Positions 29,507 to 35,780 of a stretch of 40,288 nucleotides of DNA are shown here, piece after piece. The DNA comes from Acidobacteriota bacterium (lineage in GTDB: Bacteria; Acidobacteriota; UBA6911). Made by a program: the position numbers and the translations under genes. The DNA lies in the NCBI GenBank assembly GCA_016934555.1, contig JAFGSS010000185.1, positions 1-40,288 of the forward strand, given 5' to 3'. The notes beneath the pieces were generated by a model that ran no database searches, was not told where the DNA came from, and saw only the letters and a program-made list of their open reading frames with translations. Position 1 is the stretch's first letter. Each line of letters begins with the position of its first letter.

Positions 29507-30949
29507 ATGGGATTCAACTGGGTGGACGGGTTCATCGTCCTGGCGTACCTGCTGGGGATCACGCTGTTCGGCATCCATTTCCGCAAGAAGCAGCAGTCGA
29601 TGCACACCTATTTTCTTGGCGGGAAGACGGCCCCCGCCTGGGTGCTGGCCCTCTCGATCGTGGGGACCGAGACCAGCACCCTGACCATCATCAGCACCCC
29701 CGGAATCGCCTTCGCCGGGAACCTCAGCTTTCTGCAGCTGATCCTGGGATATCTGGTCGGGAGGGTATTCATCTCCCTCATCCTCATCCCCGCCTATTTC
29801 AAGGGGGAGATGTACACCGCCTACGAGCTGATGCAGCGCCGGTTCGGCCCCCGCGTCAAGCACGCCACCGCGAGCATGTTCCTCATCACCCGCGCCCTGG
29901 CCGAGGGGGTCCGGGTCTTCGCCATCGCGATCGTCGTCGGGATCGTGCTCGGCTCAGGGGATATCTGGTCCATCCTGATCATTTCGGCCCTGACCCTGAT
30001 CTACACCTTCCAGGGGGGGTTCACCGCCGTCATCTGGACCGACGTGGTGCAGCTCGGCATCTACCTCGGGTGCACCGCCATCACCTTCTTCGTCATCCTG
30101 GGCATGATCCCCAACGGCTGGGAGGGGGTGCTGGCCGCCGCGGGACCGAAGTTCGCCGTCTGGGACTTCTCTCCCGACATCCACATCCCCTATACCTTCT
30201 GGGCCGGCATCATCGGGGGCGCCTTCCTCACCACGGCCAGCCACGGGGTGGATCAGCTGATCGTGCAGCGCCTCCTGGCGGCCAAAAACGAGCGGGACAG
30301 CAAGATCGCCCTGCTGTCGAGCGGCGTCATCGTCCTGTTTCAATTCACGCTTTTCCTCGTCATCGGCGTCATGCTCTACAGCTTCTACCACTACCACCCG
30401 GAGCTGGCGGCCCCCGCCGCCGCCGACAGGATCTTTCCCACCTTCATCGTGAGCTATCTCCCGCACGGGGTCCGCGGCATCATGGTCGCGGCCATCCTGG
30501 CCGCCGCTATGTCGAACCTCAGCAGCGCCCTGAACGCGATGGCCTCGACCACCGTCGTCGATTTCGTGCGCCCCTTCTTCCGCAACAACCTGTCATCGGC
30601 AAGCCAGCTGCGGATATCGCGCTGGTTCACCGTTTTCTGGGGCGTCGCCCTGGCGGCTCTGGCCGTGCTCTCGCGCGGGGTCGGGTCGGTCCTGGAGGCG
30701 GGGCTGACGATCGCCTCGATCACCTACGGGAGCATGCTGGGGGTGTTCCTGCTGGGAGTGCTGACCAAACGGGCCAACGAATATGGCGCCATTGCGGGCA
30801 TGGCGGCCGGGCTTGTCTCCATGCTCGGCGTCTGGGTCGCGAGCGACGTCGCCTTCACCTGGTACGTTCTGATCGGGACCGTCATCACCTTCGCCGTCGG
30901 GTACGCGGCGAGCCTCCTGTCCGCCCGGGGTACCGTCGCGAACGCCTAG
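29507..30949 (+). CDS. Sodium:solute symporter (SSS family)
   Basis: This is an inner-membrane transporter using the sodium gradient to take up a small solute. The 480-residue product has about 13 hydrophobic helices. It begins FNWVDGFIVLAYLLGITLFG and continues with the family segments TYFLGGKTAPAWVLALSIVG and TETSTLTIISTPG. YTAYELMQRRFGPRVKHATA is the loop before TM4, and TFQGGFTAVIWTDVVQLGIY is the sugar-symporter-like TM5/6 region. SHGVDQLIVQRLLAAKN is a classic SSS motif. The likely substrate is a sugar or sugar acid, but this cannot be fixed. The gene ends in a CTAG shared with the stop of the convergent L,D-transpeptidase gene. Confidence 0.93.
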   Translation: MGFNWVDGFIVLAYLLGITLFGIHFRKKQQSMHTYFLGGKTAPAWVLALSIVGTETSTLTIISTPGIAFAGNLSFLQLILGYLVGRVFISLILIPAYFKGEMYTAYELMQRRFGPRVKHATASMFLITRALAEGVRVFAIAIVVGIVLGSGDIWSILIISALTLIYTFQGGFTAVIWTDVVQLGIYLGCTAITFFVILGMIPNGWEGVLAAAGPKFAVWDFSPDIHIPYTFWAGIIGGAFLTTASHGVDQLIVQRLLAAKNERDSKIALLSSGVIVLFQFTLFLVIGVMLYSFYHYHPELAAPAAADRIFPTFIVSYLPHGVRGIMVAAILAAAMSNLSSALNAMASTTVVDFVRPFFRNNLSSASQLRISRWFTVFWGVALAALAVLSRGVGSVLEAGLTIASITYGSMLGVFLLGVLTKRANEYGAIAGMAAGLVSMLGVWVASDVAFTWYVLIGTVITFAVGYAASLLSARGTVANA

Positions 30950-31422
30950 CCGATTTCCACGGGGGTCCCGGCCGGCACCCGGTCGAACAGCTCCTGGATG
31001 TCCTCGTTGCGCATCCGGACGCAGCCGTGGGAACGGGGCTCCCCCATCGGCTCCGTGTCCGGCGTCCCGTGGATGTAGATGTAGCGCTGCATGGTGTCCC
31101 GCTCCCCCAGCCGGTTGACCCCCGCTTCGCACCCCGAAAGCCAGAGGATCCGGCTGAGCACCCAGTCTCTTTCGGGGAAGCGTGCGGCCAGCTCGGGGGA
31201 CCAGACCTCCCCCGTGGGGCGCCGGCTGACCAGCACGGCGCCGCGCGGCAGCCCGGCGCCGATTTTGGCCCGCACGACATGGTGGCCGCGCGGCGTCCCC
31301 CCGCTCCCCTTGAGTTCGCCCGCCCCCCGGGCGGCGGTCGACACCGGGTAGCGCGCGAGGGTCTCACCCCTGTCCCCCAGCAGGGTCAGCGTCTGCCGGG
31401 CTATGGAAATCTCGATCTTCAT
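30946..31422 (-). CDS. L,D-transpeptidase (YkuD domain), no signal peptide
   Basis: YkuD enzymes cross-link peptidoglycan or attach proteins to it through a catalytic cysteine. The 158-residue product is nearly all domain. IYIHGTPDTEPMG gives His118, and SHGCVRM (131-137) gives the nucleophile Cys134, so the active site is intact. There is no signal peptide or membrane segment in front of the domain, which is odd for an enzyme acting outside the cell. The ATG at 31422 follows the upstream gene's stop by 9 bases, so an N-terminal extension in this frame would overlap that gene. It is probably co-transcribed with the tannase-like gene. Its stop overlaps that of the symporter by four bases. Confidence 0.92.
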   Translation of the reverse strand: MKIEISIARQTLTLLGDRGETLARYPVSTAARGAGELKGSGGTPRGHHVVRAKIGAGLPRGAVLVSRRPTGEVWSPELAARFPERDWVLSRILWLSGCEAGVNRLGERDTMQRYIYIHGTPDTEPMGEPRSHGCVRMRNEDIQELFDRVPAGTPVEIG

Positions 31423-31431
31423 CCTTACCCG

Positions 31432-32994
31432 TTACGGTTCCACGCAGGTGAAATTGGCGGCGTCGTCGATGTCCCCACTCCCCTTGTAGCGGGCCACCTT
31501 GGGATAGGCGCACACGGGCCGGGTCCGGTAGACATCACCCCCCCCGCCCATGGCGCCGCCCCCGGCCCCCTTGCGGTGGGAGTAAATGATCACCTCGGGC
31601 TCCTTCCCCTTCTCGACCCAGCTCTCGATCGCCGAAAAGGCGTCGAAATCCCCCTCGTTCATCACGAACCCGGGGCATCCGCCGGAACCGGGGACGGAGA
31701 AGAGGCGCACGAAATCCTGCGTCTCGCCGCGCCCGCCCATTGTCCGTTCCACGCTCTTATAATACTCGACGAACTGCCGCGGGGGGAGCGCCAGGCTGTT
31801 CCAGGAAGAGACCATGATCATCTTCCCCCCCGACTGCTTGAACGCCCGGAGATCGGGGCTGTCGTTGTCGACATATTTCGAGGTCCGTTCGATCCCCAGG
31901 CGGGTGTCGCGGTCGACGTCGAAGGTGCGCCAGTCCCAGTCGGGGTCCTGGAAGACCATCCCCTTGAAGTAATTGAGGTTGACCGAGAAGGGCTCCTTTT
32001 CGATCATGAACGCCCAGCCCAGTTCACTCCCCGGTTCGAACCCGCTGTAGATCGGGCTGCCGTCCTTGAACTTCGCCCCGGCGTAGATCTTCCGGGCGGT
32101 GTCGACCTGGCCTGCGGTCAGGCAGGAAGGGGCGTCCGCCCCCCGGCACTGGAGGGTGCCAGGGTCGAATCGGCACCTGGTCGGGTCGCCGATGAGGCCG
32201 TCGACCAGGCCGTCGTCGGCATCGCAGGCATCCAGGGCCGCCTTGTTGATCAGTTCGAGCTTCGAGACCGGGATGTAGCCCGGCCCGTCGACTCCGTCCT
32301 TGAGCGCCACCCAGCTGATGTAGAGTGAACCCGGCTGCAGGCGGGAGATCTGGAAGGCAGGGTCGCCGACGACGATGCCGTCGAAATCGTCCGGGTAGCG
32401 CTGCGCCTCGGAAACCCCCTGGTTCCCCCCGTTGTGGCAGCTGTTCCAGAAGGAATACCGTACCGGTTTGCCGTAGTAGCGCCGTGCCATCTCCTTGGTC
32501 ACCACCGCCATCTCGTGCACCGCCCGGTAGCCCCAGTCGGCCCATTTTTCGGGATGCCCGATGGCCCACTGGAAGTCGGGGTCCACGTGCCCGGTGTCGG
32601 TCCCCCCGGCGACGTACCCCCGCTCCATGATCGCGGCCAGGCCGGAAGGGGAAAGCGAGCCGATGAAGCCGGGGTTGCCGGCCGCCAGGAACTTCCCGTT
32701 CCAGTTCTCCGCCGCGGGAAGCCAGACCTCGATCCCGATGCGGGAATCGGCCGTCGGCGCCGAGTAAGCCTCGACGCGGCAGAAGGGGGCGTTGACCTTC
32801 CGGGGCGGGGCGTTCAGGAAGCCCGACTGTGCCGGCAGCTCGAACCCGGGGCTTCCGGCCCGCGCGGAGGTGATGGTGACGTTGGGGATCCTGACCGACG
32901 CGAGGCTTTCGCACGACTGCTGCGCGCCGCCCGGGCGCGCCAGGAAGATCAATCCGGCCAGCAGGACGGCCGACAGGAAACGGCGGGAACTCAT
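31432..32994 (-). CDS. Secreted tannase/feruloyl esterase-family protein with altered catalytic triad
   Basis: The 520-residue product has a signal peptide (about 1-25, ending GGAQQ) and aligns end to end with tannase/feruloyl-esterase family members. Visible family motifs are NWNGKFLAAGNPGF, EAQRYPDDFDGIVVGDPA, the calcium-site-like CDADDGLVDGLIGDPTRC, and TRPVCAYPKVARYKGSGD near the C-terminus. Active members have the CS-D-HC motif. Here GCSTGG is replaced by SCHNGG (Ser becomes His187), the GWAD-type segment by SWNS (398-400, Asp lost), and HC by GC (His becomes Gly439). The two flanking cysteines, Cys186 and Cys440, remain. It is therefore probably not a classical serine esterase. GAGGAGGAGC precedes the ATG. 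Confidence 0.9.
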   Translation of the reverse strand: MSSRRFLSAVLLAGLIFLARPGGAQQSCESLASVRIPNVTITSARAGSPGFELPAQSGFLNAPPRKVNAPFCRVEAYSAPTADSRIGIEVWLPAAENWNGKFLAAGNPGFIGSLSPSGLAAIMERGYVAGGTDTGHVDPDFQWAIGHPEKWADWGYRAVHEMAVVTKEMARRYYGKPVRYSFWNSCHNGGNQGVSEAQRYPDDFDGIVVGDPAFQISRLQPGSLYISWVALKDGVDGPGYIPVSKLELINKAALDACDADDGLVDGLIGDPTRCRFDPGTLQCRGADAPSCLTAGQVDTARKIYAGAKFKDGSPIYSGFEPGSELGWAFMIEKEPFSVNLNYFKGMVFQDPDWDWRTFDVDRDTRLGIERTSKYVDNDSPDLRAFKQSGGKMIMVSSWNSLALPPRQFVEYYKSVERTMGGRGETQDFVRLFSVPGSGGCPGFVMNEGDFDAFSAIESWVEKGKEPEVIIYSHRKGAGGGAMGGGGDVYRTRPVCAYPKVARYKGSGDIDDAANFTCVEP

Positions 32995-33176: not shown

Positions 33177-34751
33177 ATGGCCGAGGAAGCGGCGAAGTAT
33201 TCGAAAAAGCAGGTTCTGTGGGGACTGGTGGCCATCTTCGCCGTCTACGGCACGGTGGCCTACTCGGTGCAGACGCTGACCATTGCCCGGCCGAAGATCA
33301 CGGCCGACCTGGACGGGCTGTCGCTGTACGCCTGGTCGGTGTCGATCCCCGCGCTCGTCATGGCCCTGGTGACCGTCATCTTCGGGAAACTCTCGGATAT
33401 GTACGGGCGGCGCCTCATCCTGATGATCGCCCTGTCGGCCTCGCTCGCCGGGACCGTCCTCTCCGCCCTCAGTCCCACCTTCGTGTTTTTGATCGTGGCG
33501 AGCGCGATCGCGGCCGTGGGCGCCGGGGCGATGATGCCGCTGGTCTTCGCCGTGGTCGGCGACCTATTCCCGCCCACCGAGCGGGCCAAGTGGGTCGGCC
33601 TCCTCAATATCCCGCTCGGGGTGTTCACCCTGACCGGCCCCGCACTGGGCGGCTTCATCGTGGATTCGCTGAACTGGCGCTACCTGTTCTGGCTGGCGGT
33701 CCCCCTGCTTGTCCTCTGCCTCGTCACCGTGCCGATGGGCGTCCCTTCCATGGCCAACCGGGATAAGAGCCGCAAAATCGACCTCAAGGGCTGTTTCTGG
33801 ATGGCGCTCGCGGCCTCGAGCTCCATCCTCGCCTTTTCCTTCGCCGGCACGACCTTCCCCTGGCTCTCCACGCCGATCCTGGGCCTCCTCCTCCTCTCGG
33901 TCGTCTGCTGGGTCGTCTTCGTCCGGGTCGAAACGCGCGCCGGGGAGCCGATCCTCGATCCGATCGTGCTCCGCAACCGCTCCTTCAGCACCGTGGCGCT
34001 GGCCACCTTCTTCTCCTCTTTCGGGACGATGGGGATGATGATGTACTTCCCGATGTTCCTGCAGGGGGTGCAGGGAATCAGCACGCTCCAGAGCGGCTTC
34101 ATCACGACCCCCTACGGGGTGCTGACGGCCTTCATGGGGGTCCCCGCCGGCTACGCCATCGCCCGCACGGGGCGCTTCAAATGGATGTTCGTGGCGGGGT
34201 ACGGCCTGCTGGTGGCCGCCATGTTCGCCCTGATCCTCTTCGGCGCCGGCACCCCGGTCGCGTGGAGCGTGGCGGTGGCCGTGCTGGCGGGGCTGGGCTA
34301 CGGCGTCATCCCGACGATCAACACCGTGGTGGTGCAGAACGCGGTCCCGATGCGGCTGATGGGGGTGGCGATGGGGGCCATCTTCTTCTTCCTCAACATC
34401 GGGTCGGCCATCTCCCCCGCGATCCTGGGCTCGACGATGAACGTCGCCTACGCGCGCGCGCTCGAGCAGTCGCTGCCGCCGGAACTGAAAGTGACGGCGG
34501 ACGCGCGGATCCTGGAGGCCATCGACGATCCCCAGGTGCTGCTGTCGGCCCCCGCCATGGAGGACCTCCGCAAGGTGCTCGACGGGAAGACCTCCGGCGG
34601 CGAACCGCTCTTTGACCGAACCCTCGCCGCCGTGCGCGGGTCGCTCGAGGCGGGAGTGCGCGCCATCTTCTGGATCGGCGCGGCGATGACCCTCCTCTCC
34701 TTCCTCATCGTCGCGACCATTCCCGGAAAAACCCGGGGAGGGGAGGAGTAG
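33177..34751 (+). CDS. MFS drug:H+ antiporter-like transporter (DHA2, 14 helices)
   Basis: This is an inner-membrane major facilitator superfamily exporter. The 524-residue product has about 14 hydrophobic helices. Motif A is clear as FGKLSDMYGRRLILM (about 69-83). A motif C-like GVFTLTGPALGGFI (about 150-163) marks it as an antiporter. The overall plan matches EmrB/QacA-type DHA2 transporters. A periplasmic loop between the last helices (about 425-485) is unusually long. The ribosome site AAAGGAGACATCG precedes the ATG. It is divergent from the tannase-like gene and convergent with the NTF2-like gene, with which it may form a functional group. The substrate is unknown; aromatic compounds are a guess from context. 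Confidence 0.9.
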   Translation: MAEEAAKYSKKQVLWGLVAIFAVYGTVAYSVQTLTIARPKITADLDGLSLYAWSVSIPALVMALVTVIFGKLSDMYGRRLILMIALSASLAGTVLSALSPTFVFLIVASAIAAVGAGAMMPLVFAVVGDLFPPTERAKWVGLLNIPLGVFTLTGPALGGFIVDSLNWRYLFWLAVPLLVLCLVTVPMGVPSMANRDKSRKIDLKGCFWMALAASSSILAFSFAGTTFPWLSTPILGLLLLSVVCWVVFVRVETRAGEPILDPIVLRNRSFSTVALATFFSSFGTMGMMMYFPMFLQGVQGISTLQSGFITTPYGVLTAFMGVPAGYAIARTGRFKWMFVAGYGLLVAAMFALILFGAGTPVAWSVAVAVLAGLGYGVIPTINTVVVQNAVPMRLMGVAMGAIFFFLNIGSAISPAILGSTMNVAYARALEQSLPPELKVTADARILEAIDDPQVLLSAPAMEDLRKVLDGKTSGGEPLFDRTLAAVRGSLEAGVRAIFWIGAAMTLLSFLIVATIPGKTRGGEE

Positions 34752-34805: not shown

Positions 34806-35780
34806 CTACCGGATGCTCTGCAGCTCCTCGCTCATCCCCTGCTCGTAGGTGCTCCAGCCGGAGTTCATCCCGTAGGGGCAGCGGTGGAAGATGGCCTCGA
34901 TGCGCCGGATCTGTCCCTTTTCCACCTTGAAGATCTCCGCCAGCTGCCAGGTCCAGTTGATGGAAAGGTGATCGAAGAAACCGAAGGCGTAGACGTTGCC
35001 CCGCTCGCGGTCGACGGCGACGAAGCGCCGGTCGCGGATCCGCGATACGATATCCTTGAGCTGTCCCGATTCGAACTGCTTCTTGCACTCCTTGGTCGAG
35101 AGCATGCCGTTTTCGTAGCGCACGCAGTCGTCGGTGAAGGGATAGTAACCCTTGCCGTCGTTGCGCTGCAGGCCGGCGAAGTAGTAATTCCCGACCTCGA
35201 CCAGCTCCTCGCGCGACATCCGCTCCGACTCGGGAATGGTCTGGGTGAAGATCTCGTGCGGCGCCCCCATCTTCTCCACCGCTTCCGCCGTGGGGGGGAA
35301 CTTGGAGGCGGGAGCAGGCCCGGACAGGCTCTGTTCCGGCCGTATGGCCAGCTGCTCGGCCTCGGTGATCAGCCCGTTGACGATTTTCAGGCGGATGGCG
35401 ACGGCGATGGTGGTCGGCTGCGCCGGCTTGGCTCCCGGGTCGGCCTTCGCCCCGCGCGCGGCGCCCCCTTCCCGGGCGGTCCCGAGAAACGCCACCTGCT
35501 GCGTCTCGACGTCGGGGACGTAGAACTTGTAGGATCCCTTCCCCGACATGCTGTACCAGAGTCCCTCGCCGCCGAGCGGCAGTTCCACGCCGTTTTCGGT
35601 GAACCGGCAGTTCTTGTGGAAGAGGTCCGGGCTCACCTTGTGGGCGATCATGGCGTCCATGTACCGGTCCATGTAGTTTTCCAGGCAGGCGCGGTCGCAC
35701 GCCGGCTTGACCACCGGCTGGGCGAGCGCCGCCGGGACGAAGACGAAGAAAAGTGCCGCAACGAACCAACGCATCCGCAT
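34806..35780 (-). CDS. Secreted NTF2/SnoaL-like protein of unknown function
   Basis: The 324-residue product has a signal peptide (about 1-20, ending PAALAQ). CDRACLENYMDRYMDAMIAH, FTENGVELPLGGEGLWYSMS and VAIRLKIVNGLITEAEQLAI read like an NTF2-like (cystatin-alpha/beta) fold. In that fold a helix is followed by a polar pocket. Proteins of this type are often found as secreted pairs with aromatic-ester or sugar enzymes; the function here is unknown. A second, similar half (DDCVRYENGMLSTKECKKQF, then residues WTWQLAEIFKVEKGQIRRIE) suggests an internal duplication of the fold. Cysteines in both halves could form disulfides. The ribosome site AAGGAGGAATCTC precedes the ATG. It converges on the MFS gene. 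Confidence 0.78.
   Translation of the reverse strand: MRMRWFVAALFFVFVPAALAQPVVKPACDRACLENYMDRYMDAMIAHKVSPDLFHKNCRFTENGVELPLGGEGLWYSMSGKGSYKFYVPDVETQQVAFLGTAREGGAARGAKADPGAKPAQPTTIAVAIRLKIVNGLITEAEQLAIRPEQSLSGPAPASKFPPTAEAVEKMGAPHEIFTQTIPESERMSREELVEVGNYYFAGLQRNDGKGYYPFTDDCVRYENGMLSTKECKKQFESGQLKDIVSRIRDRRFVAVDRERGNVYAFGFFDHLSINWTWQLAEIFKVEKGQIRRIEAIFHRCPYGMNSGWSTYEQGMSEELQSIR

Follow-up and report, generated by a model that had tools for sequence, protein, structure and literature searches.

Can a protein that carries the whole scaffold of a tannase-family esterase, and none of its three catalytic residues, still be functional, and if so, in what capacity? The question is raised by a gene in a contig of an Acidobacteriota bacterium (JAFGSS010000185.1, analysed over its full 40 288 nt and referred to below as the window). 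The tannase family, with its feruloyl esterases, its tannases and the PET-recycling MHETase, has been much studied and its members are normally taken as serine hydrolases. The initial annotation saw in the window protein either a pseudoenzyme or an enzyme with a mechanism based on His187, and the results presented here support that pair of options.

A tannase-family protein with a replaced triad

The gene, its signal peptide and the positions around the former triad are as follows (the clade is the group of 25 genes described in the next section).

31432..32994, minus strand: secreted tannase-family protein of 520 amino acids, with His-Ser-Gly replacing the Ser-Asp-His triad (PF07519, alignment, model)
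32923..32994, minus strand: predicted Sec signal peptide, residues ~1-24, ending ...RPGGA-QQ (by eye from the translation)
32437..32439, minus strand: Cys186, codon TGC, first cysteine of the predicted active-site disulphide (alignment, codon check)
32434..32436, minus strand: His187, codon CAC, at the nucleophile elbow, where canonical members have Ser; unchanged throughout the clade (alignment, codon check)
31795..31797, minus strand: Ser400, codon AGC, in place of the catalytic Asp; the older half of the clade has Glu here, the younger half Ser or Gly (alignment, tree)
31678..31680, minus strand: Gly439, codon GGA, in place of the catalytic His; the older half of the clade has Met here (alignment, tree)
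31675..31677, minus strand: Cys440, codon TGC, second cysteine of the predicted active-site disulphide (alignment, codon check)

The reading frame, annotated from the start as intact and as encoding a signal peptide, is indeed open from 32994 to 31432 on the minus strand, with an ATG start and an AGGAGG-type ribosome site upstream; the signal-peptide pattern was recognized by eye, and the N-termini of the relatives are similarly hydrophobic. Both sequence and fold place the product in the tannase/feruloyl-esterase family PF07519. It matches the Tannase profile with 331.8 bits (cut-off 29.8) over the full length of the profile (positions 3-490 of 490) and aligns to the solved feruloyl esterase 6g21 with E = 1e-61. 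Its AlphaFold2 model (pLDDT 84.5, pTM 0.85; below 50 in pLDDT for the 107-113 loop) contains the alpha/beta-hydrolase domain and the large lid of the family, and has the feruloyl-esterase fold: Foldseek gives TM scores of 0.84-0.86 over ~515 columns to the fungal enzymes AoFaeB, AoFaeB-2 and FoFaeC (3wmt, 6g21 and 6fat), and up to 0.79 to MHETase of Ideonella sakaiensis (PF07519; 6qga, 6qz3).

On 6g21, H187, S400 and G439 align with Ser, Asp and His, and the codons agree with the replacements initially read from the sequence: the elbow has no catalytic Ser, the site after strand beta7 has Ser400 in place of Asp, and the residue before the second cysteine is Gly439 instead of His. The spacings of 213 and 39 residues, noted as typical of the family, are within one residue of those of AoFaeB, whose triad is S203-D417-H457 (PMC6461665). 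Both flanking cysteines are kept, as had been seen, and the pair is retained as a predicted disulphide across the clade (C186 in 25/25 members, C440 in 24/24 where the residue is present). With the three fungal enzymes, to which it is about 27% identical, the window protein shares the whole fold and lid, the cysteine pair, the oxyanion Gly position and the lid segment CDxxDG..DG; it differs from them in the triad and in having Pro instead of Gly before the oxyanion residue. With MHETase it shares the family, the fold and the order of the three positions, but S225, D492 and H528 are all missing, and Gln220 and Pro108 stand at the positions of Gly258 and Ser131. The genome that carries the window also encodes three canonical paralogs (C232, C184 and C48; 25-42% identity to the window protein), all of which keep Ser, Asp and His.

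Ordinary ester hydrolysis is very unlikely for a protein without the Ser nucleophile and the catalytic His, and serine-esterase chemistry, judged from these replacements, should be lost; in MHETase, the S225A substitution abolishes activity (PMC7568301).

A conserved clade of single origin

Relatives were taken from genome contigs, from the genus and class of the window, from the phylum, and from relatives of two Gammaproteobacteria-labelled MAGs. The elbow motif C-H-[N/E]-G-G was found in 25 genes, which are spread over about 13 genomes obtained in different projects. Eighteen of these lie in nine of the ten genomes of the acidobacterial genus of the window (the genus search found no clade gene in G006, which is 97% complete), one in a record labelled Deltaproteobacteria (JAFGFY010000190) and six in three MAGs (G396, G397 and G414) reached via Gammaproteobacteria-labelled records. 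In a tree of 22 clade and 54 canonical rows the clade forms a single group with an SH-aLRT of 100, and the same support is obtained with 25 and 71 rows after removal of the 12 diagnostic columns. The patterns C-H, W-N and G-C therefore mark a conserved clade, the point that the initial annotation had proposed to check by alignment, and its single origin is strongly supported. The lowest identity within it is 44%. His187 is present in 25/25 clade members and in none of 85 canonical rows (a set that includes a few repeats of one gene), where Ser occurs in 85/85, Asp in 84/84 and His in 83/83 of the rows in which the position is present.

The clade is also well delimited. In a profile scan of the phylum and genus each of its genes scored 825 bits or more, against 580 bits for the next Acidobacteriota match, and 26 loci read from the scans (the best matches and some weaker ones) all have Ser-Asp-His. 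A search of viral contigs found no clade match; plasmids gave homologs of less than 60% identity only. An NCBIfam search found no model for the clade, and no report of triad-less tannase-family members was found in the open-access literature.

These genes are under purifying selection, with a constraint no weaker than that in three canonical pairs: dN/dS is 0.104-0.202 in the clade pairs for which it could be computed, versus 0.153-0.218 in the canonical ones. The origin of the data from MAGs is the sole point that could be made for gene decay or for an error of sequencing or assembly, and such an explanation has a negligible probability. It is excluded by the presence of the substitutions throughout the clade (25 genes, about 13 genomes, different projects), including a 93% identical copy in G005, by the absence of stop codons and by the dN/dS values of 0.10-0.20, so that the original view of a selected function rather than decay stands.

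Two-step replacement of the triad and a probably rebuilt pocket

Position 400 is Glu in 12 clade members, Ser in 12 and Gly in one, and position 439 is Met in 11 and Gly in 13. When these states are counted on the tree, two changes in all are needed, which is the minimum possible: Ser-Asp-His became His-Glu-Met once, and this in turn became His-Ser/Gly-Gly once. The window protein carries the derived state, His-Ser-Gly. The initial annotation spoke of a loss of all three residues together; all three are indeed gone here, but the present state was reached by way of the older His-Glu-Met. An obligate heteromer of the two subtypes was considered and ruled out, as G000 and G005 carry one subtype only.

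Further positions of the pocket are listed below.

32671..32673, minus strand: Pro108, beside the oxyanion residue; the same in 25/25 clade members, whereas 82/85 canonical rows have Gly (alignment)
32668..32670, minus strand: Gly109, counterpart of Gly132 in the oxyanion hole of MHETase; always Gly or Ala in the clade (alignment)
32362..32364, minus strand: Asp211, right behind strand 206-210; kept in 24/25 clade members, whereas canonical ones mostly have Ala (alignment, model)
32335..32337, minus strand: Gln220, invariant in the clade; maps to Gly258 of MHETase (mapping inferred by counting along alignments)

Pro108, Trp143, Gln220 and Asp311 are each found in 25/25 clade members, Asp211 in 24 and Asn188 in 23. 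The fixation of further new residues (P108, D211, Q220, W143, D311) points to a site that was rebuilt rather than one that is merely dead, and since a dead site would drift, the constancy of His187 in 25/25 members while positions 400 and 439 shifted argues that this residue is under constraint. The pattern of conservation thus favours a pocket that was rebuilt and not left drifting. Two of the positions concerned can be compared with MHETase: at its position 131, which aligns with Pro108, 91% of the family have Gly (PMC7568301), and at the position of Gln220 the backbone of Gly258 helps to hold the carboxylate-binding Arg411 (PMC6461665, PMC7568301). That Pro108 would have destroyed the oxyanion hole was considered and dropped: the oxyanion Gly maps to position 109, which is Gly in 17 and Ala in 8 clade members (Gly in the window protein), and the oxyanion backbone positions 109 and 188 are retained in the clade.

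The retained hole, together with a His exactly at the nucleophile elbow, invites the idea of an esterase in which His187 itself attacks the ester and forms an acyl-imidazole in that hole; in the older members Glu400 would orient the His. Esterases that use a His as nucleophile have been designed, but we know of no natural alpha/beta-hydrolase with a nucleophilic His at the elbow; moreover, half of the clade has lost Glu400, and the oxyanion loop is altered by Pro108. We regard this possibility as improbable.

Another possibility is that the protein is an ordinary esterase whose triad has been relocated within the same pocket. Asp211 could be invoked here, given that the place after strand beta6 is a known alternative site for the acid in the alpha/beta-hydrolase fold (PMC11878206). 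However, a search for a triad at other pocket positions revealed no new invariant Ser in the clade, the invariant His136 and His160 are family-wide, and the standard Ser is used in all canonical rows, which makes relocation very improbable, even more so than attack by His187. A strict His187-Asp211 dyad is plausible and unproven: Asp211 also occurs in 8/85 canonical rows, and one clade member has Gly instead.

Eight His-Glu-Met members (L031, L049, L050, L051, L053, L054, L055 and L166) have the oxyanion loop N-P-A-F-E-G. Its Glu111 may lie near His187 and Glu400, and a metal or proton-relay cluster would be possible there. A metal site made of His187, Glu111, Glu400 and Met439 could exist in part of the clade only and is unsupported for the window protein.

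Gene neighbourhood and spread

The window gene has the following neighbours.

30946..31422, minus strand: YkuD L,D-transpeptidase, directly downstream of the tannase-like gene (9 bp gap); order kept in G005
33177..34751, plus strand: MFS transporter, divergent to the tannase-like gene; homologs near the clade gene in G005 and G008
34806..35780, minus strand: secreted protein of ~320 amino acids, of a family without Pfam match whose paralogs cluster near tannase-family genes

No conserved operon was found across the clade. At L008/L170 two clade genes lie directly behind a homolog of p-cresol methylhydroxylase/vanillyl-alcohol oxidase (635 bits to 9h40), with an AMP-dependent CoA ligase nearby. 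Elsewhere the neighbours are URO-D-type proteins (L094/L096), FAD_binding_2 (L101), a molybdopterin (MoCo) oxidoreductase (L102) and, by eye only, aldehyde:ferredoxin oxidoreductases. The context is thus varied, with a suggestive leaning to aromatic metabolism. In the stretch of MAG G396 that holds the oxidase homolog and the adjoining clade pair (L170, 11347-16274), the pair consists of one His-Glu-Met and one His-Ser-Gly member.

The secreted protein at 34806-35780 had no match in Pfam, NCBIfam or PDB. Its family has many copies, with matches in 13/13 genomes searched. As a rough count among the matches listed, members lie within 6 kb of 11/33 canonical tannase-family genes versus 1.1 expected under uniform placement, and of 4/24 clade genes versus 0.8 expected; neighbouring pieces may be one gene in these counts, and a single orthologous locus accounts for two of the four clade cases. 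The protein looks NTF2/SnoaL-like by eye; its single-sequence model is poor (pLDDT 39.5). Lignin dimers are the substrates of the NTF2 enzymes LdpA and PcfL (PMC12997858).

Tannase-family genes are numerous in the genus of the window (G000-G009), where a single genome can give as many as 13 matches; this suggests a life style linked to plant phenolics. The sequences of the gammaproteobacterial MAGs (the taxon labels being those of the records) take two or three different positions within the clade in the trees. Their clade genes are on contigs of 218 and 305 kb, the tetranucleotide make-up of which agrees with that of a 1.8-Mb contig of the same MAG. Transfer of clade genes between phyla is therefore likely. 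Clade genes common to the acidobacterial genus and to the MAGs related to the Gammaproteobacteria label are found at L006, L008, L159, L165 and L166, and copies of the secreted family of 34806-35780, at up to 70% identity, are common to the same genus and MAGs.

What the protein may do

The reading that we place first, to which we give an even chance, is that of a catalyst centred on His187 and acting on a phenolic compound. The secreted tannase-family scaffold would have had its active site rebuilt around the elbow His, and would no longer be a serine esterase. The pocket would still accept a phenolic or phenylpropanoid-type ligand; we infer this type of ligand from the conserved residues at pocket positions, from the lid and from the aromatic-catabolism genes beside some clade genes. 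His187 would serve as the functional centre, as general base or acid, partnered by Glu400 in the older members and probably by Asp211, the gap left by the old catalytic His being filled by Met439 or Gly439. The reaction, on a phenol, might be of the lyase, isomerase or dehydratase type. Some observations weigh against this reading: Glu400 is absent from the half of the clade to which the window protein belongs, and Asp211 is shared with a few canonical rows and missing from one clade member, which leaves the acid partner uncertain; the neighbourhoods vary across the clade, so that the aromatic context is no more than suggestive.

There is precedent for such chemistry in HOD, a cofactor-free dioxygenase of the alpha/beta-hydrolase fold in which the substrate is deprotonated by a His-Asp dyad and no Ser is required; the fold can therefore do without a Ser nucleophile and rely on a His as general base (PMC10548524, PMC3961685). 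Unlike the window protein, HOD combines a Ser at the elbow with a His that occupies the standard place and is partnered by an Asp; a dyad of this type, with His at the post-beta8 place, is absent here, position 439 being Gly or Met in the clade. There is no close sequence relation between the two and we do not claim membership. Alpha/beta-hydrolase families without a triad, such as DUF687 and DUF3530, keep the fold and have no assigned function (PMC11878206); they are different families, and an invariant elbow His is not known to be described for them.

The main alternative is a true pseudoenzyme, a secreted protein that binds or carries phenolic esters or aromatic acids; its His187 would contact the ligand without catalysis. 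Secreted binding proteins may also keep one fixed ligand-contacting His. That the three catalytic residues are all gone in this half of the clade, while fold, lid and pocket are kept under selection, is what one would expect of a binder, and an MFS transporter gene is close by in three genomes. However, an absolutely conserved ionisable residue at the elbow, along with other fixed residues at pocket positions, exceeds the needs of a binder; the small oxyanion residue is kept, the ancestral stage still had the acid Glu400, and a transporter or receptor partner is not conserved across the clade. We consider a pseudoenzyme a serious contender, somewhat short of an even chance.

If catalysis centred on His187 is nevertheless the function, the clade could represent a natural enzyme class with a catalytic His (nucleophile or general base) at the elbow, in a retained oxyanion hole, derived from a feruloyl esterase via His-Glu-Met and acting on phenolic or lignin-type compounds. 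This broader proposal, drawn from sequence comparison, is a tentative one and we think it rather unlikely as a whole.

The tannase family contains a conserved clade in which all three catalytic residues have been replaced and the scaffold has been kept. The automatic annotation of its members as 'tannase/feruloyl esterase' is probably wrong. Both steps of the replacement are represented by extant sequences, and the clade offers a clear, testable case of a hydrolase becoming something else.
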